In this document: positions 12,953 through 47,881 of the stretch, piece by piece
Position numbering within the stretch: position 1 is the first letter of the stretch
Layout of the letters: every line of letters starts with the position of its first letter
Assembly (NCBI GenBank): GCA_028873925.1
Contig: JAPPNA010000184.1
Location: 1 to 58,161 of the forward strand
Direction: 5' to 3'
Source of the DNA: Bacteroidota bacterium
GTDB lineage: Bacteria; Bacteroidota; Rhodothermia; Rhodothermales; Bin80
DNA: 58,161 nt
The notes under the pieces: generated by a model
What the model was told of the DNA's origin: nothing
The model's database searches: none
Seen by the model: the letters and a program-made list of their open reading frames with translations, nothing else
Program-made: the position numbers and the translations under genes

Positions 12953-12960
12953 TCAGCAAC

Positions 12961-15204: not shown

Positions 15205-16199
15205 GCGCTACCCTCTGCCGAAAAGCCGTGTCGCTGACTGCAATTAGTGCAGTGCTGACCCTGTCCGCATTCGGACAGAAAGTGGGCACTTCCTCCATGC
15301 AGTTTTTGAGCGTAGCCCCGGATGCGCGCGCCATGGGCGTGGGAACCGCGTACAGCGCGCTGGCCGCCGGTGCCCATGCCTTGTACTGGAACCCTGCCGG
15401 GCTCACCCGGGCCAGCGGACACGATCTTGCGTTGGACCGGGTGGACTACTTCCTGGACGCGGCCCATTACGGGGTCGCTTACGGTGCCGCTCTCGGGTCA
15501 TTCGGTCACCTGGGCGTACAGTTCTACTTAGCTGACATGGGCTCCTTCCAAGAGACCCGGGTGGACCACCTGGGATTCATCGACCAGGGCGGCGGGCAGG
15601 TGTACAATCCCGGTCTGACAGGGGCCACCTTCACGCTGAGAAGCTGGGTGGCCGGGCTTTCGTATGCCCGCGCCTTTACGGACCGCTTCTCGGCTGGCCT
15701 GACCGCAAAACTGGCCCGGGAAGACCTCTGGCTCGCCGATGCCCAGGCCCTGCTGTTTGATTTCGGCATGACCTATGCCACCGGCTTCAGAACCCTTCGA
15801 TTGGGCGCATCCGTAATGAATTTCGGGGCCCCGGTCACCTACGGCGAGGATGCGTTTCCGGTGCCGCTGCTCTTCCGTCTTGGCGGGGCGATGGACCTGG
15901 TTGGTACCGAAGCCCCAATAGCCATCGGGGCCAGCAGCCGGCTGACGGCAAGCTTTGATGTCATCCAGCCGAACGATTACGATCAGCAATGGGCCGCCGG
16001 CATGGAGTACGCCTTTTTTGAGCGATTTATTGCCCGCGCAGGTTACCAGCACAATCATGATATCGCTTCGTACAGTTTCGGCATCGGCCTGCGCCAGCCG
16101 CTGGCGATAGTGCGGCTGGGGCTGGACTACAGCTACAGCGACATGAATGAGGCCTTCGGAGCTGTTCACCGCATAGGCATCTCGCTTTCAACAGACTGA
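15201..16199 (+). CDS. PorV/PorQ-family outer membrane beta-barrel protein
   Basis: 332 residues with a signal peptide (ends SAFGQ). The mature start has the family features SSMQFLSVAPDARAMGVGTA and HALYWNPAGLTR, followed by alternating barrel strands and a long C-terminal beta region. PorV is the outer membrane shuttle of type IX secretion that carries substrates with C-terminal domains from the translocon to the surface; PorQ-type relatives have related roles. Its place in the alginate operon, among proteins with such C-terminal domains, suggests a dedicated export or anchoring partner, but this copy could be a general barrel. It overlaps the upstream gene by four bases, and the downstream start shares its last base (TGATG). 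Confidence 0.82.
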   Translation: MSATLCRKAVSLTAISAVLTLSAFGQKVGTSSMQFLSVAPDARAMGVGTAYSALAAGAHALYWNPAGLTRASGHDLALDRVDYFLDAAHYGVAYGAALGSFGHLGVQFYLADMGSFQETRVDHLGFIDQGGGQVYNPGLTGATFTLRSWVAGLSYARAFTDRFSAGLTAKLAREDLWLADAQALLFDFGMTYATGFRTLRLGASVMNFGAPVTYGEDAFPVPLLFRLGGAMDLVGTEAPIAIGASSRLTASFDVIQPNDYDQQWAAGMEYAFFERFIARAGYQHNHDIASYSFGIGLRQPLAIVRLGLDYSYSDMNEAFGAVHRIGISLSTD

Positions 16200-17608: not shown

Positions 17609-17617
17609 CCGCTGTGC

Positions 17618-20239: not shown

Positions 20240-20246
20240 AGAGTGG

Positions 20247-20277
20247 CTTGCAATTGGTCACAGCCGATGCTAACTTG
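20247..20277 (+). promoter_or_regulatory. Bacteroidota-type promoter for unit 2
   Basis: CTTG at 20247-20250 and TAACTTG at 20271-20277, 20 bases apart, form the same pattern as at 10079-10109. This sits in the 92-base gap after the first lyase and would start a second transcript with a leader of roughly 50 bases before the ATG at 20332. Confidence 0.55.
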
Positions 20278-20290
20278 TATTACATCATAC
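20275..20290 (+). promoter_or_regulatory. Candidate GntR operator, unit 2
   Basis: TTGTATTACATCATAC is the most symmetric of the three sites: GTAT and ATAC arms separated by six bases. It overlaps the -7 box and start region exactly as in unit 1. Confidence 0.5.
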
Positions 20291-20331
20291 GTGTTCGGAT
20301 TTTTTCACTGAAGCGAAACCGATTTAGGAAT

Positions 20332-22683: not shown

Positions 22684-22699
22684 CCGCTGCCAGGGGTAG

Positions 22700-24430
22700 A
22701 TGCTGACTCGGGCCGGATTGATTCTGTGCCTGCTTCTGCCGGGTGTAGCCGGCGCTCAGACCGAGCGGAAGGCTCACACCCCGCAGGAGCTGTCGGCAGC
22801 CATTGCGGCCTCTGGACCCGGAGATACCGTGGTCATGGCCAACGGCACCTGGACGGATGTGGAGGTTTCCTTCTTCGCTGAAGGCGCGGAGGCAGATTCC
22901 ATTACGCTGCGCGCGGAAACGCCCGGTCAGGTCGTGCTCAACGGCACCTCCCGACTGAGTATCGGCGGCCGGTACCTGAAGGTGGATGGACTCTGGTTTG
23001 ACCGGGGAGCTTTAGCCAGCGGGCATGTAGTTGAGTTTCGGCGGTCTTCGTCCAACCTGACCACACACAGCCGGCTGACCAACTGTGCGATTACCGACTA
23101 CAATCCGCCCGACTATCTGACGCAGTACAAGTGGGTTTCCGTGTACGGTCGGCATAACCGCGTGGACCACTGTCATTTTGCGGGCAAAACGCATGATGGC
23201 GCGACGGTAGTCGTCTGGCTCGCTGACCCGCCCAATGACGCACCGGTTTGGCACCGCATTGATAACAATTACTTCGGCAACCGCCCGGAGCTGGGCAAGA
23301 ACGGCGGAGAATCCCTGCGCATCGGCACCAGCAGCCGTTCAATGCAGAACGCGCATGTAACAGTTGAACACAATCTGTTTGAGGAATGCGATGGCGAGAT
23401 CGAGATCATTTCCAACAAGAGCGGTCAGAACGTCTTTCGCCACAACACTTTCAGACGTTCATCAGGCGTACTCACCCTGCGCCATGGCAATGATGCCCAT
23501 GTCCACGGCAATTATTTCCTGGGTGACGGCAAAAGCGGGTCTGGAGGCGTGCGCATTATCGGGGAGCGCCATCGCGTCTATAACAACTACTTCCAGGACC
23601 TGGAAGGATCGGATTATCGGGCCGCCGTGTCGTTTGTAAACGGCATCCCCAATTCGCCGCTGAACAGATACTTTCAGGTCAGGAATGCCTTTGTAGGTTT
23701 CAACACCTTCGTAAATGTGGAGCAGGCCTTCATCATGGGTGCCGGCTCCAGTTCTTCGCAATCACTGGCCCCGGACAGCCTGACTATTGTCAGTAATCTG
23801 GTCTTCACGCGCAACGGGCCGATCATTGAATATGAGGATGCCCCCCTGCAGGTTACCTACGCGGCCAATATTGTCTACGGCGCACGCGTGGGCATTGATC
23901 TACCTGACGATGGCATCGCGATTGACGATCCAGAGCTCTCTCAGCTGAGCGATCTCTGGCGTCCGTCCCTGACGAGTCCGGCGGTGGGGCGCGGGCTTCC
24001 GGTGGACTTTGTCACCCGAGACATTGATGGCCATGTGCGTGATATGACCCCGGAGGTGGGCGCAGACGAAATCTCTTCCGGTGCCATCGTGTACCGACCG
24101 CTGACCGCGCAGGATGTCGGGCCCGCATTCATGCACCTGATTCTGCAGTCTGTGCCGACCACCTACCATGCACCGGTGGCCACTCTGATAGCGTATCCCA
24201 ATCCGTTCCGCGAGGCGACTACGCTGGAATTTGCGTTGCGGGCCCCCGGCCAAGTACGCCTGGTCCTGTATGACCTTCTGGGCCGCGAGGTGTCACAACT
24301 GGTCAACGGCTACCACACGGGTGGTCGCCATTTGCTTCGGATCGAGGCTGACGGGTGGGCACCCGGTGCCTATCTGGTCGTGCTTAGTATTGGGGAGGCG
24401 CGACAGTCCAGGGTTATATTCCGGCAATGA
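22700..24430 (+). CDS. PL6 alginate lyase with C-terminal sorting domain
   Basis: 576 residues with a signal peptide (ends VAGAQ). The PL6 (chondroitinase B-like) parallel beta-helix runs to ~430. Diagnostic motifs: NNYFG-RPELGKNGGESLRIG (calcium-site region, ~195-207), EIISNKSGQN (catalytic Lys ~240) and LTLRHGN (catalytic Arg ~260). The family performs calcium-dependent beta-elimination of alginate, usually mannuronate-guanuronate or poly-M/G bonds. The C-terminal IAYPNPFREATTLEF...LYDLLGREV domain suggests type IX secretion or cell-surface attachment. Its last codons overlap the next PL6 gene (ATGA). Start ATG at 22700, 16 bases after the previous stop. Confidence 0.92.
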   Translation: MLTRAGLILCLLLPGVAGAQTERKAHTPQELSAAIAASGPGDTVVMANGTWTDVEVSFFAEGAEADSITLRAETPGQVVLNGTSRLSIGGRYLKVDGLWFDRGALASGHVVEFRRSSSNLTTHSRLTNCAITDYNPPDYLTQYKWVSVYGRHNRVDHCHFAGKTHDGATVVVWLADPPNDAPVWHRIDNNYFGNRPELGKNGGESLRIGTSSRSMQNAHVTVEHNLFEECDGEIEIISNKSGQNVFRHNTFRRSSGVLTLRHGNDAHVHGNYFLGDGKSGSGGVRIIGERHRVYNNYFQDLEGSDYRAAVSFVNGIPNSPLNRYFQVRNAFVGFNTFVNVEQAFIMGAGSSSSQSLAPDSLTIVSNLVFTRNGPIIEYEDAPLQVTYAANIVYGARVGIDLPDDGIAIDDPELSQLSDLWRPSLTSPAVGRGLPVDFVTRDIDGHVRDMTPEVGADEISSGAIVYRPLTAQDVGPAFMHLILQSVPTTYHAPVATLIAYPNPFREATTLEFALRAPGQVRLVLYDLLGREVSQLVNGYHTGGRHLLRIEADGWAPGAYLVVLSIGEARQSRVIFRQ

Positions 24431-27108
24431 TTGCACTGACCACTGCGCTGTTGCTGGTGGGCCTGTCCGCTCCCGCCGATACACTGGTAAAGACTGCAGC
24501 CGAATTCCACGATGCCGTGCGTGCTGCCCGACCCGGAGACACCATAGTGATGGCGAACGGCATTTGGAAAGATGTGGTACTTACTTTTGATGCCGATGGC
24601 TTGGAGGGAGATTCAATTACCGTTCGGGCGGAATCCGCGGGACGCGTAATTCTGACCGGCAGTTCCCGGTTGCGCATGGGCGGGCGGTATTTGAAAGTGG
24701 AGGGGCTATGGTTTCACCGGGGGGCGCTTTCGGGCGGCCATGTGGTTCAGTTCCGAACCGACCGGCCGGCGCATCACAGCCGGCTTACGGATTGTGCCAT
24801 CACTGAATACAATCCCGCCAACTGGCTGCTCCAGTACAAGTGGGTGTCGCTGTACGGGACCCACAACCGGGTCGATCACTGCTACTTTGCCGGCAAGACG
24901 CACGACGGAGCGACATTGGTGGTGTGGCTGGAGGATCCGCCGAATGATCAGCCCAACTACCACCGGATTGACCACAACTTTTTTGGATGGCGCCCCGTCC
25001 TCGGCAAGAATGGCGGAGAGACGATCCGCATCGGTACGAGCAGCCGCTCCATGCAGGATTCCTTCACGGCCGTGGAATTCAACCTGTTCCATCGGACAAA
25101 CGGCGAACACGAAATCATCTCCAACAAGTCGGGCCATAATACCTTTCAATACAACACCTTCCACGAGGCTCGGGGTGCCTTGACCCTCCGGCACGGCAAT
25201 CATGCCGTGATCAGGCAGAACTACTTTTTGGGCGGCGGACAACCAGGCACCGGCGGGGTGCGTGTCATAGGGGAAGACCACGAGGTATCGCACAATTATT
25301 TTGCTCACCTGCAGGGTGACTCCTCGCGGGCTTCACTGTCGGTCATGAACGGCATTCCCGACTCCCCGCTCAACCGCTATTTCCAGGTCCGGCGTGCGGT
25401 CATCGCCAATAACACGTTTATTGACACGCACACCACCATCCTGTACGGCTTGGGGGCGGATCAGGAAAAGACCCTTTTGCCGAAACAGGTGCTGTTCGCG
25501 CGCAACCTGGTCGCAACATCCAGTGTTCGGCCTGTTGTGTCGGACCATGTTCCCACCGACCAGGTATCCTGGCTGGGCAATCTGTTCTACGGCTCCAGTT
25601 TGGGCATTGAACAGCGGGCTGGCATTCTGTGGGAGAGTCCAGACCTGGTGCGGGATCCGCACGATCTTCTGCAACCATCGGGGATCGGGCAGGGTGCCCG
25701 TCTGGAGTTCCCTCCACTGACCCCTGCCGATGTAGGTGTCTCCTGGTGGGGGCAGCCCTGGACACCGACCGTTCTGGCGGACACATCCGGCGTGCTGCCG
25801 GATTTTTCCTATGCGGGATATCGCTGGGGGGAGCGGGAGCCGCCGGACTTGCCGGTAACCTTCGGGGTCACGGACTTCGGGGCCACCGGGCAGGACATGA
25901 ATGATGACACGCGAGGGTTTCAGGCTGCGCTGGATGCCGCTCATGCGCGGACCGGACCGGTGGTCATCGGTATTCCCGCGGGGGTTTTTCATCTGTCCGG
26001 AGTGCTGCTGCTGGAACGTGATAGTCTGATATTGCGGGGGAGCGGGACCGGTGCCACCCGGCTCTACATCGAAAAGCCCCTGGGAGCAATGGATTTGCCC
26101 TTGGCGCTTGAGCATTCTGTTGATTCCGTGCGCGGACATGCGGTGTCCCCGTTTACGCAGGCTGGCGGCATCATCTGGTCCCGTAATCCCGACGCAATAG
26201 AGGTGCCTCCGGCTGTAGCTGTTCGCTCCCTTGAGCCGGGTGGCCATTGGATGCGTGTTTCAGACCCTGGCTTTGTGGATGTCCCCGGTGCGGCTCATTT
26301 GGTGTCGGGTCAGAAGGTGCTGCTGCACGTCTCGGTTATCTCACGCTCCGACGACACACTTTATACCAAGCAGCCGCTACCTACCGATCTTTCCCATGCT
26401 GCAGATCTGCGCCTGGTGCCTGCAGATTATATTCGGGAAGTGGGCATTGAGCAGCTGACCCTTGAATTTGAGCCCGTGCCTTACAGTGGGCATCGGCTGG
26501 AAGATGGCTACAATGCCATCTATCTCACGCAGGTCCGGCACGGGTGGGTCCGCGATGTTGTTATAATCAATGCGGATGCGGGAATCATCCTTGATCAGTC
26601 AGCGAACGTCACGATTAACCGCGTCAGGATCAGCGGGCGGGAAAACCACATAGGCCTGCAGCTGACCGATACCGGGTCTGCGCTTGCCCGCGATTTTGAG
26701 GTGCGATCGAATGCAGTCCATCCTGTCGGACTACAGGGCACCAGCAGCTACAATGTTATACACCGCAGCAGCTTTGACCATTTGTTTGACCTCACCGCAG
26801 GTTATCCCAATCTGTTTGATAATTCGCTGATGGAACCGGCCGATGACCGCCATCCATTGTGGATTTCTGACACCGCGACCTCTCTGATACTGTGGCATCT
26901 TGAGTACCGGCCGCAAGAGTCCTTTCGTCTGCCCGCCTTTGGAGGTGAGCTGGGACCGAGAGCCATTGCTGTGGGACTCAGCAGCACGGTCCCGATCCGG
27001 GTGCAATTACACCCCAAAACCTTCACCGAGGGCTTCAACAGGCCCGGACTGACAACGCCATCGCTCTATCTGGAGCAGCTGCAGCAGCGCCTTGCGCCCC
27101 ATCAGTAG
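24427..27108 (+). CDS. Two-domain PL6 alginate lyase fused to pectate-lyase-superfamily helix
   Basis: 893 residues. The first ~430 are a PL6 lyase very like its upstream neighbour: GKNGGETIRIGTSSRS (~192-207), EHEIISNKSGHN (catalytic Lys ~233), LTLRHGN (Arg ~254). From ~478 there is a second beta-helix beginning VTDFGATGQDMNDDTRGFQAAL, the start motif of pectate-lyase-superfamily/GH28-type proteins, running to the C-terminus. There is no 'YPNPF' sorting domain, so unlike its neighbours it may stay periplasmic. A signal peptide is short and weak (IALTTALLLVGLSAPA). The pair arose by tandem duplication with exchange of the tail. The role of the second helix is unknown; it could be a binding or second cleavage domain. 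Last gene of unit 2. Confidence 0.88.
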   Translation: MIALTTALLLVGLSAPADTLVKTAAEFHDAVRAARPGDTIVMANGIWKDVVLTFDADGLEGDSITVRAESAGRVILTGSSRLRMGGRYLKVEGLWFHRGALSGGHVVQFRTDRPAHHSRLTDCAITEYNPANWLLQYKWVSLYGTHNRVDHCYFAGKTHDGATLVVWLEDPPNDQPNYHRIDHNFFGWRPVLGKNGGETIRIGTSSRSMQDSFTAVEFNLFHRTNGEHEIISNKSGHNTFQYNTFHEARGALTLRHGNHAVIRQNYFLGGGQPGTGGVRVIGEDHEVSHNYFAHLQGDSSRASLSVMNGIPDSPLNRYFQVRRAVIANNTFIDTHTTILYGLGADQEKTLLPKQVLFARNLVATSSVRPVVSDHVPTDQVSWLGNLFYGSSLGIEQRAGILWESPDLVRDPHDLLQPSGIGQGARLEFPPLTPADVGVSWWGQPWTPTVLADTSGVLPDFSYAGYRWGEREPPDLPVTFGVTDFGATGQDMNDDTRGFQAALDAAHARTGPVVIGIPAGVFHLSGVLLLERDSLILRGSGTGATRLYIEKPLGAMDLPLALEHSVDSVRGHAVSPFTQAGGIIWSRNPDAIEVPPAVAVRSLEPGGHWMRVSDPGFVDVPGAAHLVSGQKVLLHVSVISRSDDTLYTKQPLPTDLSHAADLRLVPADYIREVGIEQLTLEFEPVPYSGHRLEDGYNAIYLTQVRHGWVRDVVIINADAGIILDQSANVTINRVRISGRENHIGLQLTDTGSALARDFEVRSNAVHPVGLQGTSSYNVIHRSSFDHLFDLTAGYPNLFDNSLMEPADDRHPLWISDTATSLILWHLEYRPQESFRLPAFGGELGPRAIAVGLSSTVPIRVQLHPKTFTEGFNRPGLTTPSLYLEQLQQRLAPHQ

Positions 27109-35247: not shown

Positions 35248-36081
35248 ATGCCATTAGGAACACAACCGGATTACGATTTTGAAACTGGCATTTCCGAGCT
35301 GACACCGCGTCAAGCGACGGTTTGGGGGTTTCATTCCGGCAGGGGTAGTACGCTATTGAGCCGCACCATTATGCTGCAGGATCTGTCCAAATTGATGATG
35401 GCGATCCCTCCGGGTTCTGAGACGGCCGTATACGCGAATGCGATCGTGGATGAGAACTGCCTTGGAAAGCCGACTGTTACGACGCGGGGAAAGTCCTTGG
35501 GGCACCTGAGGAAACTCTACGCTCTTGACGAATCGGTCCTATTTTTCAGAGTATTCCGCGATCTGTGGGATCGGGACCGGGCTGGCCGGCCGCTTCTGAC
35601 CGTACTGCTTGCCCTGACCCGAGACCCGCTGCTTCGCGCCAGTTTTTCCGCTGTGGCAAAGACTCCGATCGGCTCCGGTTTGAAGCAGGAGACATTCAGA
35701 TTCGCCATGTTAAATTCGGTGAGCCACCCAATATCAGCCATTTCTGCCGCCGCCTTGGTGGCGAGAGCCAGTTCATCCTGGGCGCAATCCGGCCATTTGT
35801 CCGATGCGAGAAGGAAGATTCGCCAGGTTGTGATGCCTACTCCCGCAGTTGCAACCTTTGCCCTCCTGATTGGATATGCGACGGGAGCGCGCGGAGCCTT
35901 GCTGCTTGAAACCCCTTGGGCCACAGTACTTGATGCCGACTGCGAAACCCTGATGGAGCTTGCGTCCGAAGCCCATCGCCAAGGTCTGCTCACCCTGATG
36001 TGCATGGGAGATGTAATTGATGTATCCTTTGCAAGTCTGCTCACGGAAACTGAGATCGAGCGTGTCGATGGCCTATATTGA
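35248..36081 (+). CDS. BREX operon first protein, BrxA-position (divergent)
   Basis: 277 residues, no signal peptide or catalytic motif. In type 1 BREX this place belongs to BrxA (DUF1819, ~200 residues, winged-helix DNA-binding). Here the protein is longer, and only a segment (NAIVDENCLGKPTVTTRGKSL, ~64-84) recalls the DUF1819 core 'IVEENxLxKxSxxT'. Other visible elements: LLSRTIMLQDLSKLM near the N-terminus, LFFRVFRDLWDRDRAGRPLL (~99-118), and LLTETEIE at the end. I call it BrxA-like by position and this weak motif only. It overlaps brxB by 14 bases. Confidence 0.6.
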   Translation: MPLGTQPDYDFETGISELTPRQATVWGFHSGRGSTLLSRTIMLQDLSKLMMAIPPGSETAVYANAIVDENCLGKPTVTTRGKSLGHLRKLYALDESVLFFRVFRDLWDRDRAGRPLLTVLLALTRDPLLRASFSAVAKTPIGSGLKQETFRFAMLNSVSHPISAISAAALVARASSSWAQSGHLSDARRKIRQVVMPTPAVATFALLIGYATGARGALLLETPWATVLDADCETLMELASEAHRQGLLTLMCMGDVIDVSFASLLTETEIERVDGLY

Positions 36082-36616
36082 CGATCTATCCAAGCGGTAT
36101 AGGCGCTACATCGCGCATCCCTGGAAGGCCAATCTTGCCGGAGCAGAGCGGACCGTTTTTGTGGTCTATGATAAGACCAAAGAGCGTCAACTGCGTGCAC
36201 GGATGGGTTTGTTTGAGCTTGCCACAAAGGAATGTGGCCATGGCTGGGCATTGTGCGACATCACCAGGTCATTTGGGCAGTGGATAGCCTCCCTGGAGTA
36301 CCGGGAGTCCTACTATGAGTCCCCGGAGGATTTACAGTTTCTGCTCAATAGCGAATTCCTGGAATTCTTGGCTCACCAGATCCGGCAGGTCCTCCGTTCT
36401 GCAGGTACCACCACGGCAGTGGGACTACTCGGCGTTGGATCCTTGTATGGATTCGTGCATGTTTCGCAGCTCCTTCAGCGAATCGATCATGAGATCAGCG
36501 GTAGGCTGGTCGTCTTCTTCCCGGGGACCTACGCCCGGAACAATTACCAGCTCTTGGATGCCAGGGATGGCTGGAACTACCTCGCCGTGCCCGTCACCAT
36601 GGAATCCCCCTCCTGA
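36068..36616 (+). CDS. brxB: BREX protein BrxB (DUF1788)
   Basis: 182 residues from ATG 36068 (MAYIDDLSKRYRRYI); upstream in-frame ATG codons lie inside the previous gene and are rejected. Family landmarks: HPWKANLAGAERTVFVVYD, GHGWALCDITRSFGQW, LLGVGSLYGFVHVS, and the near-invariant C-terminal RLVVFFPG-Y-NNYQLLDARDGWNYLAVPVT. BrxB is a small soluble core BREX component required for phage exclusion in type 1 systems; its biochemical job is not settled. It lies between the BrxA-position gene (overlapping) and brxC (four bases apart). Confidence 0.9.
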   Translation: MAYIDDLSKRYRRYIAHPWKANLAGAERTVFVVYDKTKERQLRARMGLFELATKECGHGWALCDITRSFGQWIASLEYRESYYESPEDLQFLLNSEFLEFLAHQIRQVLRSAGTTTAVGLLGVGSLYGFVHVSQLLQRIDHEISGRLVVFFPGTYARNNYQLLDARDGWNYLAVPVTMESPS

Positions 36617-36620
36617 CTGA

Positions 36621-38462
36621 ATGCTGAATCACGAAGTCTTTCAGCGCGACCCTCGCTCCAGCGTGCTGATCAATCAGGGTGTCGCCGTGATGTCCGATGC
36701 CATGAACGAGGACGAACGGCGCACCCTCCGTTTTGAGCTGGAGCATTTTGTATGCGAAGGGGAATACCATCGGGGGCTGGTGCGGATTTTGGAAGCCTTC
36801 ACGGCGAACCGTGGGCAACCGGAACTCCCAGCTGCCTGGGTAAGTGGGTTCTACGGGAGCGGCAAGTCCCATCTTGTTAAAATGCTTCGGTTTCTATGGA
36901 CGGATTACACCTTCCCCGAAGACGGAGCAACTGCACGCGGCCTTGCGCGCCTGCACCCTGATGTTATGGACTTATTAACGGAAATCAGCATCGCGGGCAG
37001 GCGAATGGGCGGGCTGCACGCGGCGGCAGGCACACTGGGGGCCGGAACTGGCACCAGTGTTAGACTCGCGTTGCTGGGCATTGTATTCAGATCAAAGGGA
37101 CTACCGCATGATTTCGCCTTAGCCAGATTCTGCCTTTGGCTAAAGCGTGAAGGCTACTTTGATCAGGTCAGATCCATAATTGAGCGTGCCGGACGCGACT
37201 TTTCCAGTGAGCTGCGTAACCTCTATGTCAGCCGCGCTATCGCAGAAGCTCTCCGGGAATTGGACCGTAGTCTGGGAAGTGATGCGCAGGACGTGCGAAA
37301 CAACATCAAGGCACAGTTCCCCAGACACGATGAAGTGTCCTCTGAAGAATTCGAGCTAACGCTCAGGGAAGTCCTTGCCCTGAATGGCCAATTGCCAGCC
37401 ACAGTGATCATTCTGGATGAGGTACAGCAGTACATTGGGTCCAAGGCGGATCGCACGTACAAGATTCAGGAGCTGGTTCAAACCTGCAGCAAGGCGTTTG
37501 GCGATCGCCTCCTGTTTGTTGGCACCGGTCAGACCGCGCTCTCCGGCACCCCTAATCTCAAGAAACTCCAGGGGCGATTCCGGGTCAATGTTGAGCTGTC
37601 CCACGTTGATGTTGAGACCGTGATCCGGCGGGTAGTTCTGGCCAAGCGCCAAGATCAAGTAACCGCAGTGCAGAACATCCTGGAAGCCAATGCGGGCGAA
37701 ATCGCCCGCCACCTGAGCGGTACGTCTATTGCTCCCAGACAGGAGGACCGCGACACGCTCGCAGATGACTACCCGCTACTCCCGGTACGTCGGCGTTTTT
37801 GGGAGCATGTCTTGCGGGCTGTGGATAAGGGGGGCATCGCGGGGCAACTCAGAACTCAACTGCGCATCGTACATGAAGCCCTTAAGCGGACCGCGAACGA
37901 CCCGCTTGGGACTGTTGTACCCGCTGACTTTCTATTTGACGAAATCTCCACCCAGCTTCTCCAGTCCGGCACACTTTCAGGCGATGTTCACGACATAATC
38001 CTGCGGCAGGAGCAAAGCGGTAGCCACGGGATCCTAAAACGGCGCATATGCGCGCTCATCTACCTGATCCGAAGTCTTCCGCATGAGGCCGGAGCAGACA
38101 TTGGCGTGCGCGCGTCCTCCAGTAATCTTGCAGACCTTCTCATTCAGGATTTGGCCACCGAGGGTGCCCGACTGCGCAAACTGGTGCCTGAATTACTGGA
38201 AGATCTAGCCAGCAACGGCACGCTTCTCAAGATTGGGGATGAGTTCAGCCTGCAGACGAGAGAAAGCAGTGAGTGGGAATCCCAATTTGTCAGGCTGCGC
38301 AACAGTGTGCTAAACGATCCGACACAAATCAGTACAAAGCGCACTCAGCTGCTTAGAGAGCGCATTGAGCGCATCCTCCGCCCGACAAGCATCCCGCACG
38401 GCAAAAGCAAGACCCCCCGGAAGCTGGCTGTTCAATTCGGGTCGCCCCCCCCCATGTTATAA
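36621..38462 (+). CDS. brxC: BrxC, N-terminal ORF (P-loop ATPase, cut by poly-C frameshift)
   Basis: First 613 residues of the BREX ATPase BrxC, which forms part of the exclusion/methylation complex. The start matches the family (FQRDPRSSVLINQGVAVMSD, FVCEGEYHRGLVRILEAF). Walker A GFYGSGKSHLVKML (~75-88); Walker B TVIILDEVQQYI (~258-269); sensor-like LLFVGTGQTALSGT (~297). The frame runs into a nine-C tract (38445-38453) and stops at once (ATG-TTA-TAA). BrxC is normally ~1,100-1,200 residues; the rest is in the next frame from ~38456 to 40066. Both halves keep family sequence right up to the tract, so the break is recent, reversible or an error. As read, the operon gives only the ATPase half. 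Confidence 0.9.
   Translation: MLNHEVFQRDPRSSVLINQGVAVMSDAMNEDERRTLRFELEHFVCEGEYHRGLVRILEAFTANRGQPELPAAWVSGFYGSGKSHLVKMLRFLWTDYTFPEDGATARGLARLHPDVMDLLTEISIAGRRMGGLHAAAGTLGAGTGTSVRLALLGIVFRSKGLPHDFALARFCLWLKREGYFDQVRSIIERAGRDFSSELRNLYVSRAIAEALRELDRSLGSDAQDVRNNIKAQFPRHDEVSSEEFELTLREVLALNGQLPATVIILDEVQQYIGSKADRTYKIQELVQTCSKAFGDRLLFVGTGQTALSGTPNLKKLQGRFRVNVELSHVDVETVIRRVVLAKRQDQVTAVQNILEANAGEIARHLSGTSIAPRQEDRDTLADDYPLLPVRRRFWEHVLRAVDKGGIAGQLRTQLRIVHEALKRTANDPLGTVVPADFLFDEISTQLLQSGTLSGDVHDIILRQEQSGSHGILKRRICALIYLIRSLPHEAGADIGVRASSSNLADLLIQDLATEGARLRKLVPELLEDLASNGTLLKIGDEFSLQTRESSEWESQFVRLRNSVLNDPTQISTKRTQLLRERIERILRPTSIPHGKSKTPRKLAVQFGSPPPML
38445..38453 (+). repeat. Run of nine C inside brxC, site of the frameshift
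   Basis: TCG is followed by nine C and then ATGTTATAA. With seven or ten C the frame continues SPP(P)HVITDNFLPVWIRDG into the second brxC ORF without a stop. Runs of this length are prone to slipped-strand changes and to sequencing miscalls; C-CCC-CCC is also a possible -1 ribosomal slip site. Confidence 0.9.
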
Positions 38463-38533
38463 CTGACAATTTCCTCCCTGTTTGGATCAGGGATGGATGG
38501 GGCGAACGTGAAGGCGTAGTTCGGGCGGATGCC

Positions 38534-40066
38534 TTGAAAGCTGGCTTGGAGAGCCCCTGTATTTTCGTTTTCGTACCCAGAGTGCGGGCGGACGCGTTGC
38601 GCAACGCGCTGGTTACTGCTCATGCCGCGGAGCAGACGCTTGAATTAAGGGGAAGCCCTTCAACTCAGGCGGGTAAAGAGGCCCGCCAGAGTATGAATAC
38701 CCGGCTCCGGGATGCCGGTGACCGACAAAGGGAGCTGATTGAAGAGATTGTCGGCCAGGCAAGAGTCTACTTGGGCGGTGGGTCAGAGCGTGCAGAATCC
38801 ACCCTCCGCGACAGGATTCAGCGTGCAGCTGAGGCTTCGCTTGAACGCCTTTATCCGAATTTCAGTAAGGCCGATGATCCTCGCTGGCACCAGGTTGTGA
38901 AACGTGCAAGGCAGGGCTCCGACCAACCGTTGGAGGTCCTTGGGCACCAGGGAATGATCGCTGACCATGCCGTTTGCCGGGCGATCTGGGACGTGGTTGG
39001 CTCTGGGAAGTCGGGCAAGGATATTCGCCAACTCTTTTCGCGACCGCCCTATGGATGGCCTCGCGATGCCATTGATGGCGGCCTGTTGGCCTTGGCCGCC
39101 AGCAGTCACCTGCAGGCATTGCGCGATGGCAATTCAATTGTTGCCCGACAGATTGATCAGAAGAACATTTCCAAGACGTTCTTCCGTGTTGAGCTTCAGC
39201 ACATAAGTGCCGCGCAGCTAATTCGGCTGCGAAAGCTGTTTTCTGATGCCGGGGTAGCCTGCAGGCCCGGGCAGGAATCCCAGGTTGCGACGGAATATTT
39301 GACGCGACTGAATAATCTCGCTAGCAGTGCCGGAGGCGAACCGCCGTTGCCTGCGTGCCCTGATGCGTCTGAAATCCGTGCGCTGCAACATCTTCAAGGA
39401 AACGAGCAACTCGCTGGCATCCTTAGGGCCTACGATTCGCTGCAGCAATTCCACCAGGCATGGACTCAGCGGTCAAGATTAGCTCAACAGCGGCTTCCAT
39501 CCTTCCAGCGGTTGTTGAAGCTGGCCGCCCATGCTGCCAATTTGAATCTCGGCAGGGATATCCAACTCCAGATTGATGCTATCCTTACGAGCCGGCGGCT
39601 GTTGGCATCAAGTGATCCTGTGCCTCCATTATCCCAAGCGCTTACGGACGCTCTTCGTACCACGCTGTCTGAATATGACCGCAACTATTCTGGGATTTAC
39701 GAGCAGCACTTGCGCTTGCTCAAGGAATCTGACCATTGGCACCAGATCTCTGGATCAGATCGCAAAGATATCCTGCGTAATCTTCAGATCGGTGCCCTAT
39801 CAACGGGAGATCTCGGCACTGAGCAGGATGTGCTTATCTCATTGGACAAGATCAGCCTAAGCAGTTGGTGCACGCGTACGGCGGCCTTGCAGCACCAATT
39901 CCAACAGGCACAGTTGCGCGCGGCTCAGCTGCTGGAACCGGTCATCCGCCCGGTAAAGCTGCCATCAGTAACCCTTGAGTCCCCCGATGAGGTGGCACAA
40001 TGGGTTGACGAATCTAAGGCCTTATTGCTGGAAGAGCTTAAGGACGGGCCAATCATGATCGCTTAG
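38534..40066 (+). CDS. brxC: BrxC, C-terminal ORF (out of frame)
   Basis: About 510 residues as an isolated frame from a TTG at 38534; the open frame extends back through 38456 (VITDNFLPVWIRDGWGEREG...), which is BrxC sequence, showing it is the continuation of the 36621 gene, not a separate gene. The first ATG in this frame is ~53 codons in, and no ribosome site is evident, so independent translation is unlikely. The content is helical (RQRELIEEIVGQARVYLGGG, RIQRAAEASLERLYPNF) and lacks a P-loop. It ends seven bases before pglX. Confidence 0.88.
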   Translation: MKAGLESPCIFVFVPRVRADALRNALVTAHAAEQTLELRGSPSTQAGKEARQSMNTRLRDAGDRQRELIEEIVGQARVYLGGGSERAESTLRDRIQRAAEASLERLYPNFSKADDPRWHQVVKRARQGSDQPLEVLGHQGMIADHAVCRAIWDVVGSGKSGKDIRQLFSRPPYGWPRDAIDGGLLALAASSHLQALRDGNSIVARQIDQKNISKTFFRVELQHISAAQLIRLRKLFSDAGVACRPGQESQVATEYLTRLNNLASSAGGEPPLPACPDASEIRALQHLQGNEQLAGILRAYDSLQQFHQAWTQRSRLAQQRLPSFQRLLKLAAHAANLNLGRDIQLQIDAILTSRRLLASSDPVPPLSQALTDALRTTLSEYDRNYSGIYEQHLRLLKESDHWHQISGSDRKDILRNLQIGALSTGDLGTEQDVLISLDKISLSSWCTRTAALQHQFQQAQLRAAQLLEPVIRPVKLPSVTLESPDEVAQWVDESKALLLEELKDGPIMIA

Positions 40067-40073
40067 GTACGGC

Positions 40074-43000
40074 ATGAAAACACTTCCGTCCGAACTGCGC
40101 AAGGTGCTTGAGCGGGCATCCGTTCAAGGCCGCAAGACAGCAGAGACAGCGGCCCGACAGTCACTTACGGCTTTAGCCGTTGACCATCACGAGCCTTTAT
40201 CGCACCTTGATGTCCAACAGCGCCAGTTGCGCAGCCGACTGCGCACGCATGCTCGCCAATTGGGCGACCGCCGGAATGGCCAGTCGGGAGCGCATTCCAT
40301 CGACCATCTGACACAAGAAATCGCTTATCAGCATTGGCACCGGATGCTGTTGCTCTGCTTTTTGTCAGAAAACGCACTCTTGATTGAACCGGAATTGCAA
40401 GTTGCGGTCACGCTGGTCGAATGCGAAGACTTAGCCCAAAATATGGGCAAGAACAAATGGCAGCTGGCCGCCGAGTTTGCGCACCACATGCTGCCCCAAG
40501 TTTTTAAGCCCGCCCATCTGGCATTCCGGGTGTCCTTGGCACCTGAACACCAGCGCAAGCTTGAGGCATTGATTGAAGGCTTGCCAAAAGCAGTATTCCA
40601 ATCACCCGATGCCATGGGCTGGATCTATCAATTTTGGCAGAGCAAGAGTAAAGATCGGATCAATGCGTCGGAAATCAAGATCGGAGCGGACGAGCTTCCA
40701 GCGGTGACGCAGCTTTTCACCGAGCCCTATATGGTTGCTTTCCTGTTGGAGAATACGTTAGGGGCGTGGTGCGAAAGCCGATATGCTGGCTCTAAGTGCA
40801 CGAAGCGTCTCAGTTATTTGCGACGCTTGGAGGATCGGGGCCTGGCGGGAGGTGGTTTTGAGGATTGGCCTGATACCTTTGCGGAAGTAAAGATCCTGGA
40901 TCCCTGCTGCGGCTCCGGGCATTTCCTGGTTGGTGCATTCCGCATGCTCGTACCTATGCGTGTGGAGATTGAGGGTCTATCTGTTCCTGAAGCCATTGAC
41001 GCGGTCCTTGCGGAGAATCTGTTCGGACTTGAAATCGACCCACGCTGCGTTGCTTTGGCCGCATTTTCTCTCGCCTTTGCTGCTTGGACCTATCCGGGAG
41101 TGGGAGGTTACATGAAGCTGCCCCCGCTCAGTATTGCCTGCTCAGGACGGGCCCCGAACATGTCCGCTGAGTCATGGACAGCCATCGCCGGAAATGATCA
41201 TGCCCCAGACTCGGGATTTGACCGGGCCCAAGCCGTTCGCCTTCGGGGCACGCTTGAGGCATTGCATGGACTGTTCTTGCAGGGGCCTCTATTGGGATCA
41301 CTTATTGATCCTAGCAGTGTTGGGTCTGAGATCTTCCAGAGCGGATTCGCCGAAGCCCGGCACGCGCTTGAGCCGGTCCTCCGGCGGGAGGAATCTGAGG
41401 TCGACTTTGAGGAGGGGGTTATCGTGGCCAGAGGACTTACCTACGCGGCCGAGCTCCTTTCAGGTGAATACACGCTCGTCGTGACGAATGTGCCCTACCT
41501 CGGCCGCGCCAAACAATGCGAAGATCTTCGCAAGTTCTGCGCGCGGGAATATCCAGATGCAAAGGGGGATTTAGCAACAGTGTTCATTCAGAGATGCCTC
41601 AAGCTCTGCAAATCGGGTGGAACCATCGGGGTCGTCTGCCCCCAGAACTGGCTTGGCCAGTCCAGCTATACGAGGCTCAGAAAGACTCTACTGCTGGAGA
41701 TGTCCTGGCATCTGGTGGCGCGTTTGGGGCCACGCTGTTTTCGATCTATTTCCGGTGCAGTAGTAAATGCCCAGCTATTGACCCTAAGCCGGCGAGCGCC
41801 AGCCTCCAATGAGCTGTCTCTCATGGATGTATCCGCCGCCAGTAGCCCAAGTGTAAAGGCCGATCAATTGGCCCATGCTGATATAATCCAGATCGCGCAG
41901 GAGGTCCAGCTGAACAATCCTGACCACATCATCGCCTCCTCCGACATAAGCGGTACACTGTTGCGTGAATGGGTCGGTGCCTATACAGGAATCACTACGA
42001 CCGACAACTTCCGGTACCGCAGGTACTTCTGGGAACTGTCCGACTTCGCCGACAACTGGAAACTCTTTCAAGGCACTGTTCGAAAAACGATCTACTTTGG
42101 TGGACGCGAGAAAATGGTACGCTGGTTGAGGGGAACCAAGGTTGTATTCCAAGAACTGCCAAGAGCAAATTTCAGCGGTAATGCAATGTGGGGCAAGGCT
42201 GGGATTTCTGTCTCACAAATGAGGTCCCTACCCGTAACCATTTATACTGGAGAGCCCTTTGACAACAACTGCAGCGCCGTTGGCCCCGCAGATGCTGACC
42301 TACTGATGGCCATCTGGTGCTTCTGCTCATCCCCAGAATACAACACAGCTATCCGGTTACTGGATCAGGCACTAAAGGTGACAAATGCTACGCTCGCCAA
42401 GGTGCCGTTCGATTACGAACGCTGGGCGCAGATAGCCCGAGAGCAATATCCCGACGGACTGCCGGATCCGTATTCCGATGATCCGACCCAGTGGGTGTTC
42501 CATGGCCATCCCTGCGGATCCGTGGTTTGGTGTGCGCGGGAAAAACGCCTGGTGCATGGCCCGGTGCGCCGCAATAGGGAGGTACTTCACACGGCGATGG
42601 CCCGTCTGCTTGGCTTCCGTTGGCCCGCAGAGCAGGATTCCGCCATGAATCTGGCCTCACTTCAACGCAGTTGGGTGAATAAGGCAGCCGCGCTGAATGG
42701 GCTTGCTGATGCCGATGGAATTGTCTGCATCCCTTCGGTGCGTGGGGAGCCCTCAGCCGAACAGCGCCTACTGGAAATGCTGGCGCATGCCTATGGCCAA
42801 TCCTGGGGCTCAGCCATCCTTGCGCAACTGCTGGAAAGCGCAGGCTGCACGACCTTGGGAGACTGGCTGCGTAATCATTTCTTTGAGCAGCACTGCCGCC
42901 TGTTCCACCATCGACCCTTCATTTGGCATATCTGGGACGGCCGCAAACGTGATGGATTTCATGCTTTGGTAAACTACCACAGACTGGCTGCGCCCAACGG

Positions 43001-43508
43001 CAGAGGGCGTCAGACCCTTGAGTCATTGACTTACAGCTATCTTGGCGACTGGATCAGTCGCCGGAAGCATGACCTGCAGAACGGGAAAGAGGCAGCAGAA
43101 GACCGGCTCGCTGCTGCCGTGCGACTCCAGACCCATCTTACAGCCATCCTCAAGGGCGACCCGCCCGACGACATTTTTGTGCGCTGGAAACCGTTGCATC
43201 AGCAAGCCATAGGCTGGGAGCCCGATTTGGATGATGGCGTGCGACTGAACATCCGCCCCTTGATGGCTCAAGACATTGATGGCGGGCGCAAGGGGGCCGG
43301 AGTATTGCGTTCCAAGCCTACCATCAGTTGGAAAAAGGACCGTGGCAAAGAAGCGAAGTGCAATGAAGCAGACTTTCCGTGGTTTTGGGACAATGGACGC
43401 TTTACTGCTAACCGCATCAACAATGTGCACCTCACGAGTGCGGAAAAGACGGCGGCGCGCGAGCAGGAAGCGACACCCGTTACAACCCGAACGCCGACAA
43501 TACTGTGA
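40074..43508 (+). CDS. pglX: BREX adenine methyltransferase PglX
   Basis: 1,144 residues. N6-adenine DNA methyltransferase that marks host DNA and takes part in phage exclusion. SAM-binding motif I is LDPCCGSGHFLVGAF (~273-287). The catalytic motif IV reads TNVPYLGR (~471), a variant of the usual NPPY. The N-terminus (LPSELRKVLERASVQGRKTAE, YQHWHRMLLLCFLSENALLIEP) and the long C-terminal target-recognition part are intact. Length is normal, and no repeat-mediated disruption is seen, unlike brxC. The NVPY variant makes the assignment of active methylation an inference. Seven bases from brxC and three from pglZ. Confidence 0.94.
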   Translation: MKTLPSELRKVLERASVQGRKTAETAARQSLTALAVDHHEPLSHLDVQQRQLRSRLRTHARQLGDRRNGQSGAHSIDHLTQEIAYQHWHRMLLLCFLSENALLIEPELQVAVTLVECEDLAQNMGKNKWQLAAEFAHHMLPQVFKPAHLAFRVSLAPEHQRKLEALIEGLPKAVFQSPDAMGWIYQFWQSKSKDRINASEIKIGADELPAVTQLFTEPYMVAFLLENTLGAWCESRYAGSKCTKRLSYLRRLEDRGLAGGGFEDWPDTFAEVKILDPCCGSGHFLVGAFRMLVPMRVEIEGLSVPEAIDAVLAENLFGLEIDPRCVALAAFSLAFAAWTYPGVGGYMKLPPLSIACSGRAPNMSAESWTAIAGNDHAPDSGFDRAQAVRLRGTLEALHGLFLQGPLLGSLIDPSSVGSEIFQSGFAEARHALEPVLRREESEVDFEEGVIVARGLTYAAELLSGEYTLVVTNVPYLGRAKQCEDLRKFCAREYPDAKGDLATVFIQRCLKLCKSGGTIGVVCPQNWLGQSSYTRLRKTLLLEMSWHLVARLGPRCFRSISGAVVNAQLLTLSRRAPASNELSLMDVSAASSPSVKADQLAHADIIQIAQEVQLNNPDHIIASSDISGTLLREWVGAYTGITTTDNFRYRRYFWELSDFADNWKLFQGTVRKTIYFGGREKMVRWLRGTKVVFQELPRANFSGNAMWGKAGISVSQMRSLPVTIYTGEPFDNNCSAVGPADADLLMAIWCFCSSPEYNTAIRLLDQALKVTNATLAKVPFDYERWAQIAREQYPDGLPDPYSDDPTQWVFHGHPCGSVVWCAREKRLVHGPVRRNREVLHTAMARLLGFRWPAEQDSAMNLASLQRSWVNKAAALNGLADADGIVCIPSVRGEPSAEQRLLEMLAHAYGQSWGSAILAQLLESAGCTTLGDWLRNHFFEQHCRLFHHRPFIWHIWDGRKRDGFHALVNYHRLAAPNGRGRQTLESLTYSYLGDWISRRKHDLQNGKEAAEDRLAAAVRLQTHLTAILKGDPPDDIFVRWKPLHQQAIGWEPDLDDGVRLNIRPLMAQDIDGGRKGAGVLRSKPTISWKKDRGKEAKCNEADFPWFWDNGRFTANRINNVHLTSAEKTAAREQEATPVTTRTPTIL

Positions 43509-43511
43509 ATC

Positions 43512-45830
43512 ATGGGAGCGGACACCACCAAGACCACCCTGATTGGCATACTTGCAGAGTCTCTGGATCAGGCGGCCAGACAAACCTCGGATGCAGTAGC
43601 TCCGCCATGCGCCTTGCTGTGGACCGATCCAGATTCGCAGTGGTTGCCCCTGCTGCCCAGACTGCGGGAATTACGCCCCAACCTGATAACATTAGGAGAC
43701 TTTAAGCCAGCCATCCGGCAGGGGCCCGCTATTTGGATTCGTGCCGGTTTGGATGGCACAGTCGCGGAAAATGCTGCACCGACCATATATCTGCCTGGAG
43801 TTTCCATTCGGCGGTTGCGCTCGGACGCGGACTGCCCCCGACATCTTCAGCCACTGGTTGAGCTGCAATACCGGGGCAATACCTGGAAACAGAAGAGTGG
43901 CAAAGACTGGACTATCCAGGCCTTCCTCGTTTCCAAAGACATGGGCTTAGCGTTTGATGTCGGTCGTGACAGGAAGACTCAAGCCGCACTGCGCAATGCG
44001 CTGCCAGAATTGGCGGAGCTCAGTGTTGATCAGCTGCAGGGTAAACAGCTGGATGCGCGCTTCTTCCACAGCCAGTTATGCAGCAACCTCCCCCGACAAT
44101 TACTGCAGTGGTTAAATCACTCGGAAAAGGTTAGGGCAGAATGCCCACCGCGTAAATGGATTGCCTACTGCGCCCTTTGCAAGACGGACCTGGAGCTGGA
44201 TCCTGATCGGGATGGAGAAGTGATCGCGGCTGAGCGATTGGGGATCCGCCGGGGACCCTGGGCGCAGTTGTGGGATCAGTTTGCCGATGCCCCGCAAATC
44301 TATCCGAATGTTCCAAGCGTGCTGCGAACGGCGTGTCCGACTGAAATACTCCCCGCATCACCCTCCTCGTGGCCGCAGATCAATGACAGAGAGGAAGCAG
44401 ACCTGCGGGCCTCCATTGGCCAGCTCATGTCTGCACCGCGAAAGGAATGCCGCGAAAGAATTCTTGCACTTGAAAAACAACATGGGGAGCGGCGAGATTG
44501 GGTCTGGACCAAATTAGGACAGGCCCCGCTGGCCCGCGCCATAGGCTACATGGCCCGTCTGGCACACGATACATCCGCACCGCTTGGAGGTGATTCACCA
44601 AGTGCTATGGCCGCAGTGTACATGCAGAGGGCCTGGGAGGCAGACAAATCCGCTCTGGCGGCGATTGCCGCCGTAAGCTCTCCCGATGACGTAAAGACTG
44701 TCACCTTAGCGGTGAACTTGTTATACGAGCCTTGGCTTCGGTCCGCCGCGGAACACCTGCAGGGACTGATTGAGCACGAGCCGTTGCCCCAGAAGCAAGG
44801 GCGGGTTGAGATACGTCAAGGCGAGGTCGTACTGTTCGCCGACGCGCTTCGATTCGATGTTGCGAAATTGCTGATCGAGCGCGGTCAATCTCGGGGTTGG
44901 ACAACCGAATTGAGCACGCGTTGGGCTGGGCTGCCATCCGTCACAGCCACGGCCAAATATGCCGTATCGCCGGTAGCAGACGACATTACTGGCGATTCAA
45001 TTACTGCAGAGTTTCAGCCGAAGTCTGCCGAAAACGGCGAAATCCTGAATGCAGACCGCTTTCGCAAGCTGCTCGGTCAGCACGGCATTGAGTATGTCCC
45101 GAGAGATGAGTGCGGAGATCCTCAAGGGCGCGGATGGACGGAGTACGGTAATCTGGACAAAATGGGGCATTCAATGGATGCCCACGATTTTGCCGTTCAA
45201 ATCAGCCGCGAAATCTCAAGCCTTATCAACCGCATCGAGCAACTGCTTGATGCCGGGTGGCACACTGTTCGCGTTGTAACAGACCACGGCTGGTTGTGGC
45301 TGCCGGGAGGCCTCCCCAAGACAGATCTCCCGAAATTCCTGACCGAGAGCCGGTGGTCCCGATGTGCTACCCTCAAGGGCAACCCCACGCTTGATGTGCC
45401 GATCGTTCCGTGGCACTGGAATTCTACAGAGCATGTGGCTGTAGCACCGGGCATTAGCTGTTTCAGGGCAGGCCATGAATATTCTCATGGCGGAGTCAGC
45501 CTCCAGGAATGTCTCGTACCGGTGATTTCCATTACGCGGGATACGCGGTCGCAGACCAGATCCGTACAGATCATCCGGGTGTACTGGCGTAGACTGCGCT
45601 GCGACATCAGGTTGGATGCCGTTTATCCCGGGTTGACGGCTCAACTCCAGACATCCGTTGGGGATCCTTCCACTGCGATTTCTGCGGAAAAGCCCATCAG
45701 TGACTCCGGCAAAGTCAGTCTGCTCGTACCTAATGAGGACCTTGAAGGCCGGTCTGCCATCGCAGTCATCCTCAACGAAAGGAATCAGGTCGTGGCTAAG
45801 AAACCTTCAATAATCGGTGGCGACGCATGA
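43512..45830 (+). CDS. pglZ: BREX phosphatase-like protein PglZ
   Basis: 772 residues; alkaline-phosphatase-superfamily protein, the most universal BREX component. PglZ-domain landmarks: EVVLFADALRFDVAKLL (~437-453, metal-site Asp), RVVTDHGWLWLPGG (~587-600, Asp-His), and HEYSHGGVSLQECLVPV (~653-669, His). The N-terminus carries a nucleotide-like region (LWTDPDSQWLPLLPRLREL). The C-terminal ~100 residues form a small beta-domain. Exact reaction in BREX is not settled. Its end overlaps brxL (ATGA), indicating coupling. Confidence 0.94.
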   Translation: MGADTTKTTLIGILAESLDQAARQTSDAVAPPCALLWTDPDSQWLPLLPRLRELRPNLITLGDFKPAIRQGPAIWIRAGLDGTVAENAAPTIYLPGVSIRRLRSDADCPRHLQPLVELQYRGNTWKQKSGKDWTIQAFLVSKDMGLAFDVGRDRKTQAALRNALPELAELSVDQLQGKQLDARFFHSQLCSNLPRQLLQWLNHSEKVRAECPPRKWIAYCALCKTDLELDPDRDGEVIAAERLGIRRGPWAQLWDQFADAPQIYPNVPSVLRTACPTEILPASPSSWPQINDREEADLRASIGQLMSAPRKECRERILALEKQHGERRDWVWTKLGQAPLARAIGYMARLAHDTSAPLGGDSPSAMAAVYMQRAWEADKSALAAIAAVSSPDDVKTVTLAVNLLYEPWLRSAAEHLQGLIEHEPLPQKQGRVEIRQGEVVLFADALRFDVAKLLIERGQSRGWTTELSTRWAGLPSVTATAKYAVSPVADDITGDSITAEFQPKSAENGEILNADRFRKLLGQHGIEYVPRDECGDPQGRGWTEYGNLDKMGHSMDAHDFAVQISREISSLINRIEQLLDAGWHTVRVVTDHGWLWLPGGLPKTDLPKFLTESRWSRCATLKGNPTLDVPIVPWHWNSTEHVAVAPGISCFRAGHEYSHGGVSLQECLVPVISITRDTRSQTRSVQIIRVYWRRLRCDIRLDAVYPGLTAQLQTSVGDPSTAISAEKPISDSGKVSLLVPNEDLEGRSAIAVILNERNQVVAKKPSIIGGDA

Positions 45831-47881
45831 GCACGCAGCTGGATGCCCTGGACCGACTGGCGGAAGCCACATTTGATGGCTTTCTGGTACGGAAAGACCT
45901 CGTCCGCAAATACAGCCGCCAGTACCCTGTGCCGACCTATGTCGTCGAATTCCTCTTGGGACGCTATTGTGCCAGCACCAACGAAGATGAAATACAGGAG
46001 GGACTGACCATTGTTGAAAGACAGCTGTCAAGCCGAACGGTCCGTACGGGCGAGGAAGAATTATTCAAGGCCCGTGCCCGTGATCAAGGAACCGTCAAGC
46101 TTATTGACCTCGTTCGGACGAAACTTGATGCTAAGACCGACTCATTCATAGCCGAACTTCCCAGCCTGGCGCTCAAAAACATCCGCATTGATGACCGCTT
46201 GGTGAAGCAACATGAGCGGATGCTGACGGACGGATTCTATGCTGAACTCTCGCTCAGCTACGATGGCTCCATTGCCATGGAGAAAGCCGGGCGTCCATTC
46301 GGGATTGACGGGCTACGTGCCATTCAGCTGTCAAGCTCCAATGTTCTGGAGACGCTCCAGAAGGGTCGCCATACCTTCAATGTCGCAGAGTGGAAAAGGC
46401 TGCTGCTGCGGAGTGTAGGCCTTGAGCCAGACCACCTGACTTCGCGCGCACAACTGGTCGCTCTGTTGCGCATGCTGCCGTTTGTCGAACGTAACTACAA
46501 TATGGCCGAACTGGGACCGCGCGGCACCGGCAAGAGCCACCTGTACCAGCAGATATCCCCGTACTCCCACCTGATTTCCGGCGGTAAAGCAACGGTGGCC
46601 AAAATGTTCGTTAATAACGCCAATGGGCAACGCGGCCTGGTCTGCCAGTATGATGTGGTCTGCTTTGATGAAATATCCGGCGTATCGTTTGACCAGAAGG
46701 ATGGGGTCAATATCCTGAAAGGGTACATGGAGTCGGGTGAGTTTTCGCGGGGCAAGGACAGTATTCGAGCCCAAGGCGGCATCGTCATGGTGGGTAACCT
46801 GGATGTAGAGGTTGAGCATCAACAGCGCGTAGGGCACCTGCTGACCCCGCTCCCACCTGAAATGCGCAACGATACGGCCTTTATGGACCGGATTCACAGC
46901 TATGTGCCCGGCTGGGATTTCCCCAAGCTCAATCCGAATGAGCACCTGACGGACCATTTCGGATTGGTCAGTGACTTCTTGTCCGAGTGCTGGACGCGCA
47001 TGCGCTCGGGCAGCCGCATATCAATTCTGCAGGGACGGGTGAATTTCGGTGGCGCGCTCAGCGGACGTGACATTACCGCCGCCAATAAGACGGTCAGCGG
47101 ATTAGTCAAACTGCTCTACCCGGACCCCGAAATGCCGGTGCCGGATGAGGAGCTTGAGGAAATCGTTAGGATCGCACTGGAGGTTCGGCGGCGCGTAAAG
47201 GAGCAGCAGAAAAAGGTCTTTCGGAGCGAATTCCGAAACACCCATTTCAGCTATACGTTGGGCGAGCGCGGGATTGAAAGATTCGTGGCTACGCCGGAGT
47301 TGCACAGCGATGCCATGATTAACCGCGACCCGTTGCCGCCGGGGCAGGTATGGGGGATCAGCCCAGGCGGGCCCGAATCAGGTGCCAGTCTGAATCGGAT
47401 AGAAGCATCCGCCGGTCCGGGTACCAAGTTCCGCATCCTCAATTCTCCCGCGCCGGCGGCGTTTCGCGAAAGCGTTCACTGCGCAACACAGAATCTGTAC
47501 ACCCGCTCCCGGCAGCTTGTAGGAGGTCGAGATCCCCGCGCTCATGAATTTGCCATACAACTCAAGTCCTATGATAACGACAGAACCGGGCGTGCACTCG
47601 GATTGCCGACCCTGATGGCCATGTGCGGTGCCTTGCTGGGTCACAGTGTCAAGGGCGGGCTAATCGTCGTCGGTGAACTTAATCTCGGCGGATCCATTGA
47701 GATGCTCTCAAACGCCACAGCCTGCGTTGAGTTGGCGCTGGACAAAGGTGCTAAGGCAATTCTTATGCCGATATCGGCTCGAAGGCAACTTAACGACCTA
47801 CCGGATGACATTGTGACCCGAATTGACATTCTGTACTTCTCAGACTCGGCGGATGCCTGGTCCAAAGCCCTCCTTGCGTAG
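45827..47881 (+). CDS. brxL: BREX Lon-like AAA protein BrxL
   Basis: 684 residues, the type 1 hallmark. An N-terminal BrxL domain is followed by an AAA core with Walker A ELGPRGTGKSHLYQQ (~226-240) and Walker B YDVVCFDEISGVSF (~275). A C-terminal Lon-like domain follows (GRALGLPTLMAMCGALLG, VVGELNLGGSIEML, ~590-650). The Lon catalytic GPSAG serine and the lysine are not present (GRALG, and no K in the matching loop), so protease activity is doubtful; published work on BrxL describes it as a DNA-binding AAA multimer. Last gene of the BREX operon; followed by an AT-richer islet on the opposite strand. Confidence 0.95.
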   Translation: MSTQLDALDRLAEATFDGFLVRKDLVRKYSRQYPVPTYVVEFLLGRYCASTNEDEIQEGLTIVERQLSSRTVRTGEEELFKARARDQGTVKLIDLVRTKLDAKTDSFIAELPSLALKNIRIDDRLVKQHERMLTDGFYAELSLSYDGSIAMEKAGRPFGIDGLRAIQLSSSNVLETLQKGRHTFNVAEWKRLLLRSVGLEPDHLTSRAQLVALLRMLPFVERNYNMAELGPRGTGKSHLYQQISPYSHLISGGKATVAKMFVNNANGQRGLVCQYDVVCFDEISGVSFDQKDGVNILKGYMESGEFSRGKDSIRAQGGIVMVGNLDVEVEHQQRVGHLLTPLPPEMRNDTAFMDRIHSYVPGWDFPKLNPNEHLTDHFGLVSDFLSECWTRMRSGSRISILQGRVNFGGALSGRDITAANKTVSGLVKLLYPDPEMPVPDEELEEIVRIALEVRRRVKEQQKKVFRSEFRNTHFSYTLGERGIERFVATPELHSDAMINRDPLPPGQVWGISPGGPESGASLNRIEASAGPGTKFRILNSPAPAAFRESVHCATQNLYTRSRQLVGGRDPRAHEFAIQLKSYDNDRTGRALGLPTLMAMCGALLGHSVKGGLIVVGELNLGGSIEMLSNATACVELALDKGAKAILMPISARRQLNDLPDDIVTRIDILYFSDSADAWSKALLA

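Follow-up and report, generated by a model that had tools for sequence, protein, structure and literature searches.

Why should a single gene of an otherwise intact BREX operon be interrupted at a run of nine C? The window, by which we mean the whole stretch of DNA analysed (58,161 nucleotides), carries such an operon, and the interruption of its ATPase gene brxC could reflect a length switch, an error in the assembly, decay of the gene or frameshifting at the run.

A type 1 BREX operon with a split brxC

PADLOC and NCBIfam profiles define a complete six-gene type 1 BREX operon in the window, in the order brxA-brxB-brxC-pglX-pglZ-brxL. The six genes, all on the + strand, are compactly arranged, separated by a few bases or overlapping. 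All six core genes of type 1 BREX are present, and brxC is the only one that is not intact in the consensus. The features of the operon are as follows.

35248..36081, + strand: brxA (PADLOC BrxA, 3.1e-76)
36068..36616, + strand: brxB (PADLOC BrxB, 2.9e-69, on the ORF 36017–36616 with the match starting at residue 18, from which the ATG start is inferred)
36621..38462, + strand: 5' part of brxC, 613 amino acids, comprising the AAA+ ATPase with its Walker A and Walker B motifs, the wHTH and the beginning of the central domain (NF033441, 4.7e-145, profile 2–593; PADLOC 1–607 of 1146)
38445..38453, + strand: C9 homopolymer tract at which slippage is proposed (from its rarity by chance and its loop position in a homologue model)
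38460..38462, + strand: premature stop (TAA) of the assembled frame
38462..40066, + strand: 3' part of brxC in the −1 frame (NF033441, 3.5e-79, profile 607–1172; PADLOC 614–1145)
40074..43508, + strand: pglX, intact, 1144 amino acids (PADLOC PglX, 1465 bits)
43512..45830, + strand: pglZ, BREX-1 type B, intact (NF033450, 1.7e-247)
45827..47881, + strand: brxL, intact (PADLOC BrxL, 7.8e-282; TIGR02653)

Elsewhere in the window, positions 10136–27108 encode a TonB-dependent receptor, a heparinase-like protein and two chondroitinase B-like proteins, several of the products bearing type IX secretion tails; this cluster is probably a locus for sulfated-glycan use.

The C9 tract, the sole C/G run of at least seven in the window, separates two ORFs that both match BrxC, and the description of the break given by an earlier, sequence-only reading of this DNA holds in each of its particulars. 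The stop of the first ORF ends nine bases past the tract, and the second ORF continues the BrxC sequence in the −1 frame without a gap, the PADLOC match passing from 1–607 to 614–1145 of 1146 and the NCBIfam match (NF033441) from 2–593 to 607–1172 of 1173. Because both profiles run on across C9, the two ORFs represent a single gene cut at a single point, with no other stop. With seven or ten C, as that reading had also anticipated, the computed translation is one protein, of 1147 or 1148 amino acids, respectively. In the alignment, the seven-C version would equal the common loop length of the relatives, and the ten-C version is one residue longer here than any of five full-length relatives.

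In a structure model of a full-length homologue with 48% identity (mean pLDDT 87, confident), the C9 site maps to the loop 608–617, between the strands 599–607 and 618–625, and the tract is accordingly predicted to lie in a β-hairpin loop of the BrxC central domain. From the model, the loop should accommodate the gain or loss of whole codons, and changes of frame would remove the C-terminal half of the protein.

Long C/G tracts and defence genes

The run-length decay was taken from 294 kb of the window's genome, in which counts drop steeply with each added base. Exact C/G runs number approximately 760 at length six (scaled from the sample) and 71 at length seven; chance predicts approximately 7 runs of eight and at most approximately 0.7 of nine or more genome-wide. 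In clean sequence, with no N gap or contig end close by, approximately 22 runs of at least nine were observed against that expectation of at most approximately 0.7; the many further runs in the low-quality sequence at gaps and ends were left out. The excess over chance begins at length nine, as would be expected of maintained tracts. Long C/G/N junk at assembly gaps, seen on four contigs of this genome (L161, L179, L199 and L200, being C15, C65, C135 and C139), would inflate naive homopolymer counts. The C9 tract of brxC has one of the marks of a contingency locus: it is a tract longer than chance inside a coding sequence, and its length sets the reading frame.

Defence genes hold 6 of the 27 clean tracts of at least eight in this genome, which was examined in the stretches surrounding its tracts. 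The probability of six or more is approximately 1e-5 to 2e-3, at an assumed defence fraction of 2–5% of the genome. The six genes are listed with their tract and the state of their frame.

brxC: C9, split
type III mod, with its restriction gene downstream: C8, split
second type III mod, 68% identical to the first: G13 in the same linker, split
type IIG/DrmMI-like enzyme: C10, split
Eco57I-like methyltransferase (MTase): G9, in frame
C5 MTase: C10, in frame

The two type III mod paralogues (L222:7531–10133 and L229:8404–11369, both in the window's genome) share the linker but differ in the base of the tract. Other tracts are intergenic or occur in or near genes whose products are secreted or exposed at the surface (Ig-like, fibronectin, collagen, PD40 and T9SS-sorted proteins).

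Tracts at homologous sites in the family

The family sample comprised 16 genomes, with the window's genus represented by one, and runs of at least nine were found in all 16. In G012, a four-contig genome from another genus of the family, two defence genes have their tracts where the homologues here have them but are in the opposite state: the Eco57I-like MTase is in frame with G9 here and split by G13 there (63% identity), and the type IIG enzyme is split by C10 here and in frame with C11 there (46% identity). The G012 genome also has a type ISP gene with its specificity domain split by G17 and a further type IIG gene split by G12. In its BREX locus, brxC is intact, one pglX is split at C8, and a second pglX, with C10 at the homologous position, keeps its frame (L286:6869–10460 and 13665–17210); from the sequences, this pair could possibly act as an ON/OFF swap of specificity. 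Another relative, G013, has a brxC split exactly at G8 (L289:3743–7373), its parts covering 1–768 and 773–1189 of the 1190 profile positions, at a site different from that of the window's C9. The BREX locus of G002 is intact and without tracts. Across the window's genome, G012 and G013, 4 of 13 tract-bearing defence genes are in frame, compared with 4.3 expected at random register, in a sample that is not fully unbiased because two of its members (G013 brxC and the split pglX of G012) came from inspecting BREX loci.

The LRR/Ig-domain surface proteins of G012 on L260, L262, L266 and L294 have G-tracts of 10–13 near their N termini and are a candidate phase-variable surface family; the domains were assigned by Pfam for L260 and L294, and L262 and L266 were grouped with them by the tract context that they share with L260.

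All 16 family genomes encode MutS, so that a mismatch-repair-deficient lineage is unsupported as regards this protein. Its presence would damp slippage, and any switching would occur with this part of mismatch repair in place.

The family comparison also bears on whether the assembled count of nine C is right. The window's genome is a draft in 185 contigs, in which C/G-rich sequence is of poor quality close to gaps, and the exact number of C could therefore be wrong; indel errors fall most often at homopolymers, and C/G-rich junk does stand beside N gaps in this assembly. Were the true length in frame, BrxC would be full length, and the tract might still be slippery. The C9 tract, however, is flanked on both sides by coherent coding sequence and lies approximately 38 kb from one end of its contig and 20 kb from the other, with no N nearby. 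Homopolymer errors could also affect some of the relatives' genomes, but they do not explain long tracts at homologous positions in the defence genes, R-M genes included, of other genera. An assembly or base-calling error is thus an unlikely account of the split, if the most serious of the alternatives.

brxC outside the family

No C/G run was found at the window's tract site in any of approximately 95 distant brxC genes from many phyla, so the C9 tract is recent or local. A poly-C conserved at this site across BREX is ruled out by the same comparison, the site being a variable linker. The search for C-runs in relatives, proposed by the earlier reading, is thus negative at this site for the distant genes; within the family, the brxC of G013 is split at a tract at another site. 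Frame breaks were present in 3 of 96 brxC loci, none of them at the C9 site. In a scan of the phylum, 37 of 394 genomes had a brxC match over the family cut-off, and a mid-gene tandem split occurred only in the window's genome; a broken brxC is not the rule. One genome, G051 (L013), has a brxC match to the C-terminal part only, with no homopolymer nearby, and represents a contrasting case of ordinary truncation. Among the records surveyed, NZ_AP026896.1 (L027) is a 4.9-Mb entry labelled as an Aeromonas caviae plasmid and is probably a mislabelled chromosome.

These counts speak to simple pseudogenisation, in which an irreversible frameshift in brxC would mark a dying BREX system. A broken frame in a single genome would fit such decay, as would the brxC of G051, which looks truncated and has no tract. 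The lesion in the window, however, is the only one in the gene and falls in the least random place, 530 codons downstream of it are still open, the other five genes of the operon are intact, and broken brxC genes are rare elsewhere (1 of 37 genomes tandem-split; 3 of 96 loci with frame breaks). Pseudogenisation is accordingly quite improbable. Programmed −1 ribosomal frameshifting or transcriptional slippage, by which one allele would yield both short and full-length BrxC, is the least credible account: the second frame is −1 as in classical cases and C CCC CCC is formally a possible slippery run, but neither a conserved slippery site (0 of approximately 95 relatives) nor a convincing stimulator (weak downstream RNA structure, z −1.66) was found, and the genome's other tracts vary in base, length and shift.

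The proposed switch and its OFF state

The brxC C9 is probably a slipped-strand contingency locus, OFF in the consensus, and one of a family-wide group of R-M and BREX genes switched by tracts. This assignment, drawn from sequence comparison, leans on the recurrence of tracts in defence genes of the genome and the family, at homologous sites and in differing frame states, so that the phase switch proposed by the earlier reading gains considerable, if indirect, support. Replication slippage in living cells would alter the number of C in the tract, reversibly, with BREX active in the one register of three that gives full-length BrxC (1147–1148 amino acids). In the remaining two, to one of which the assembled nine C belongs, the result would be the 613-residue product, which would keep the AAA+/wHTH N-terminal part. 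If brxC does belong to the family-wide set, cells of one population would differ in their combinations of active defences, from which the population might benefit.

The N-terminal AAA+/wHTH part of BrxC is a stable unit in the solved structures 9zll, 9zn5 and 9zdx and binds BrxB:PglZ (PMC13326643); the C-terminal half alone had no significant homologue among solved structures. In Acinetobacter, engineered BrxC1-551 has lost restriction as well as methylation; the truncation in E. fergusonii retains partial restriction, shows no methylation and slows growth (PMC13326643). By analogy, the 613-residue product would have lost restriction and probably methylation too, and because BrxC1-551 lost methylation in both systems and restriction in Acinetobacter, the OFF state is predicted to be R-M-, although a partial or toxic state is also possible. 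Point mutants in the C-terminal region of Salmonella BrxC separate the two activities, being R-M+ (PMC9009780); a truncated BrxC that leaves methylation on in this manner is a weakened candidate, since BrxC1-551 did not methylate in either system (PMC13326643). That slippage would switch the entire BREX system, as first suggested, is plausible in the light of the Acinetobacter protein, but in E. fergusonii partial restriction is kept.

Relation to known phase-variable systems

In pathogens, R-M genes of type III and type IIG are familiar cases of phase variation. The phasevarions and R-M systems of Helicobacter, Campylobacter, Neisseria and Haemophilus (type III mod, type I and type IIG) likewise have C/G tracts in MTase genes, and the two type III mod paralogues of the window's genome fit the phasevarion pattern directly. 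Those systems belong mostly to host-adapted pathogens, whereas the set described here also includes BREX.

Homopolymer phase variation of the BREX/Pgl gene pglX is itself known. In the type 2 BREX system Pgl of Streptomyces coelicolor, PMC4365076, citing Sumby and Smith 2003, describes slippage of a pglX G-tract from G8 to G7 with high-frequency switching of phage resistance. The likeness to the window lies in a change of homopolymer length in a core BREX/Pgl gene; the gene here is brxC, the tract C9 and the system type 1, and its slippage is a proposal. A homopolymeric tract in brxX is mentioned in PMC6326788, and PMC9122589 cites BREX with disrupted pglX as a general observation for which phase variation is proposed; a core BREX gene is interrupted there as here, but here it is brxC rather than pglX, and at a homopolymer tract. 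In the open-access literature searched, we found no report of a homopolymer tract in brxC. The earlier claim of novelty stands in that respect, but it was incomplete in attributing pglX phase variation to recombination, homopolymer slippage in pglX (PMC4365076) and a tract in brxX (PMC6326788) having been published. What would be new is the part played by brxC together with the multi-system defence set, the latter being the more interesting.

A broader view, only slightly more likely than not, is of a lineage that holds most of its DNA-modification immunity (BREX by way of brxC or pglX, together with type III, type IIG, type ISP and orphan-like MTases) under independent poly-C/G switches, such that a clonal population would contain many combinations of defence and methylation, and in one relative the ON and OFF pglX genes would switch the target specificity of BREX. 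If true, phase variation of BREX could act on its ATPase subunit, in a genome with several defence systems able to flip independently, and the hedging by bacteria against the cost and self-toxicity of immunity would become open to test. Many of the 'broken' defence genes in genome surveys would then be switches in the OFF state. As methylation and restriction both depend on BrxC, the question also arises of how a cell would survive BREX switching back on with its DNA unmethylated.
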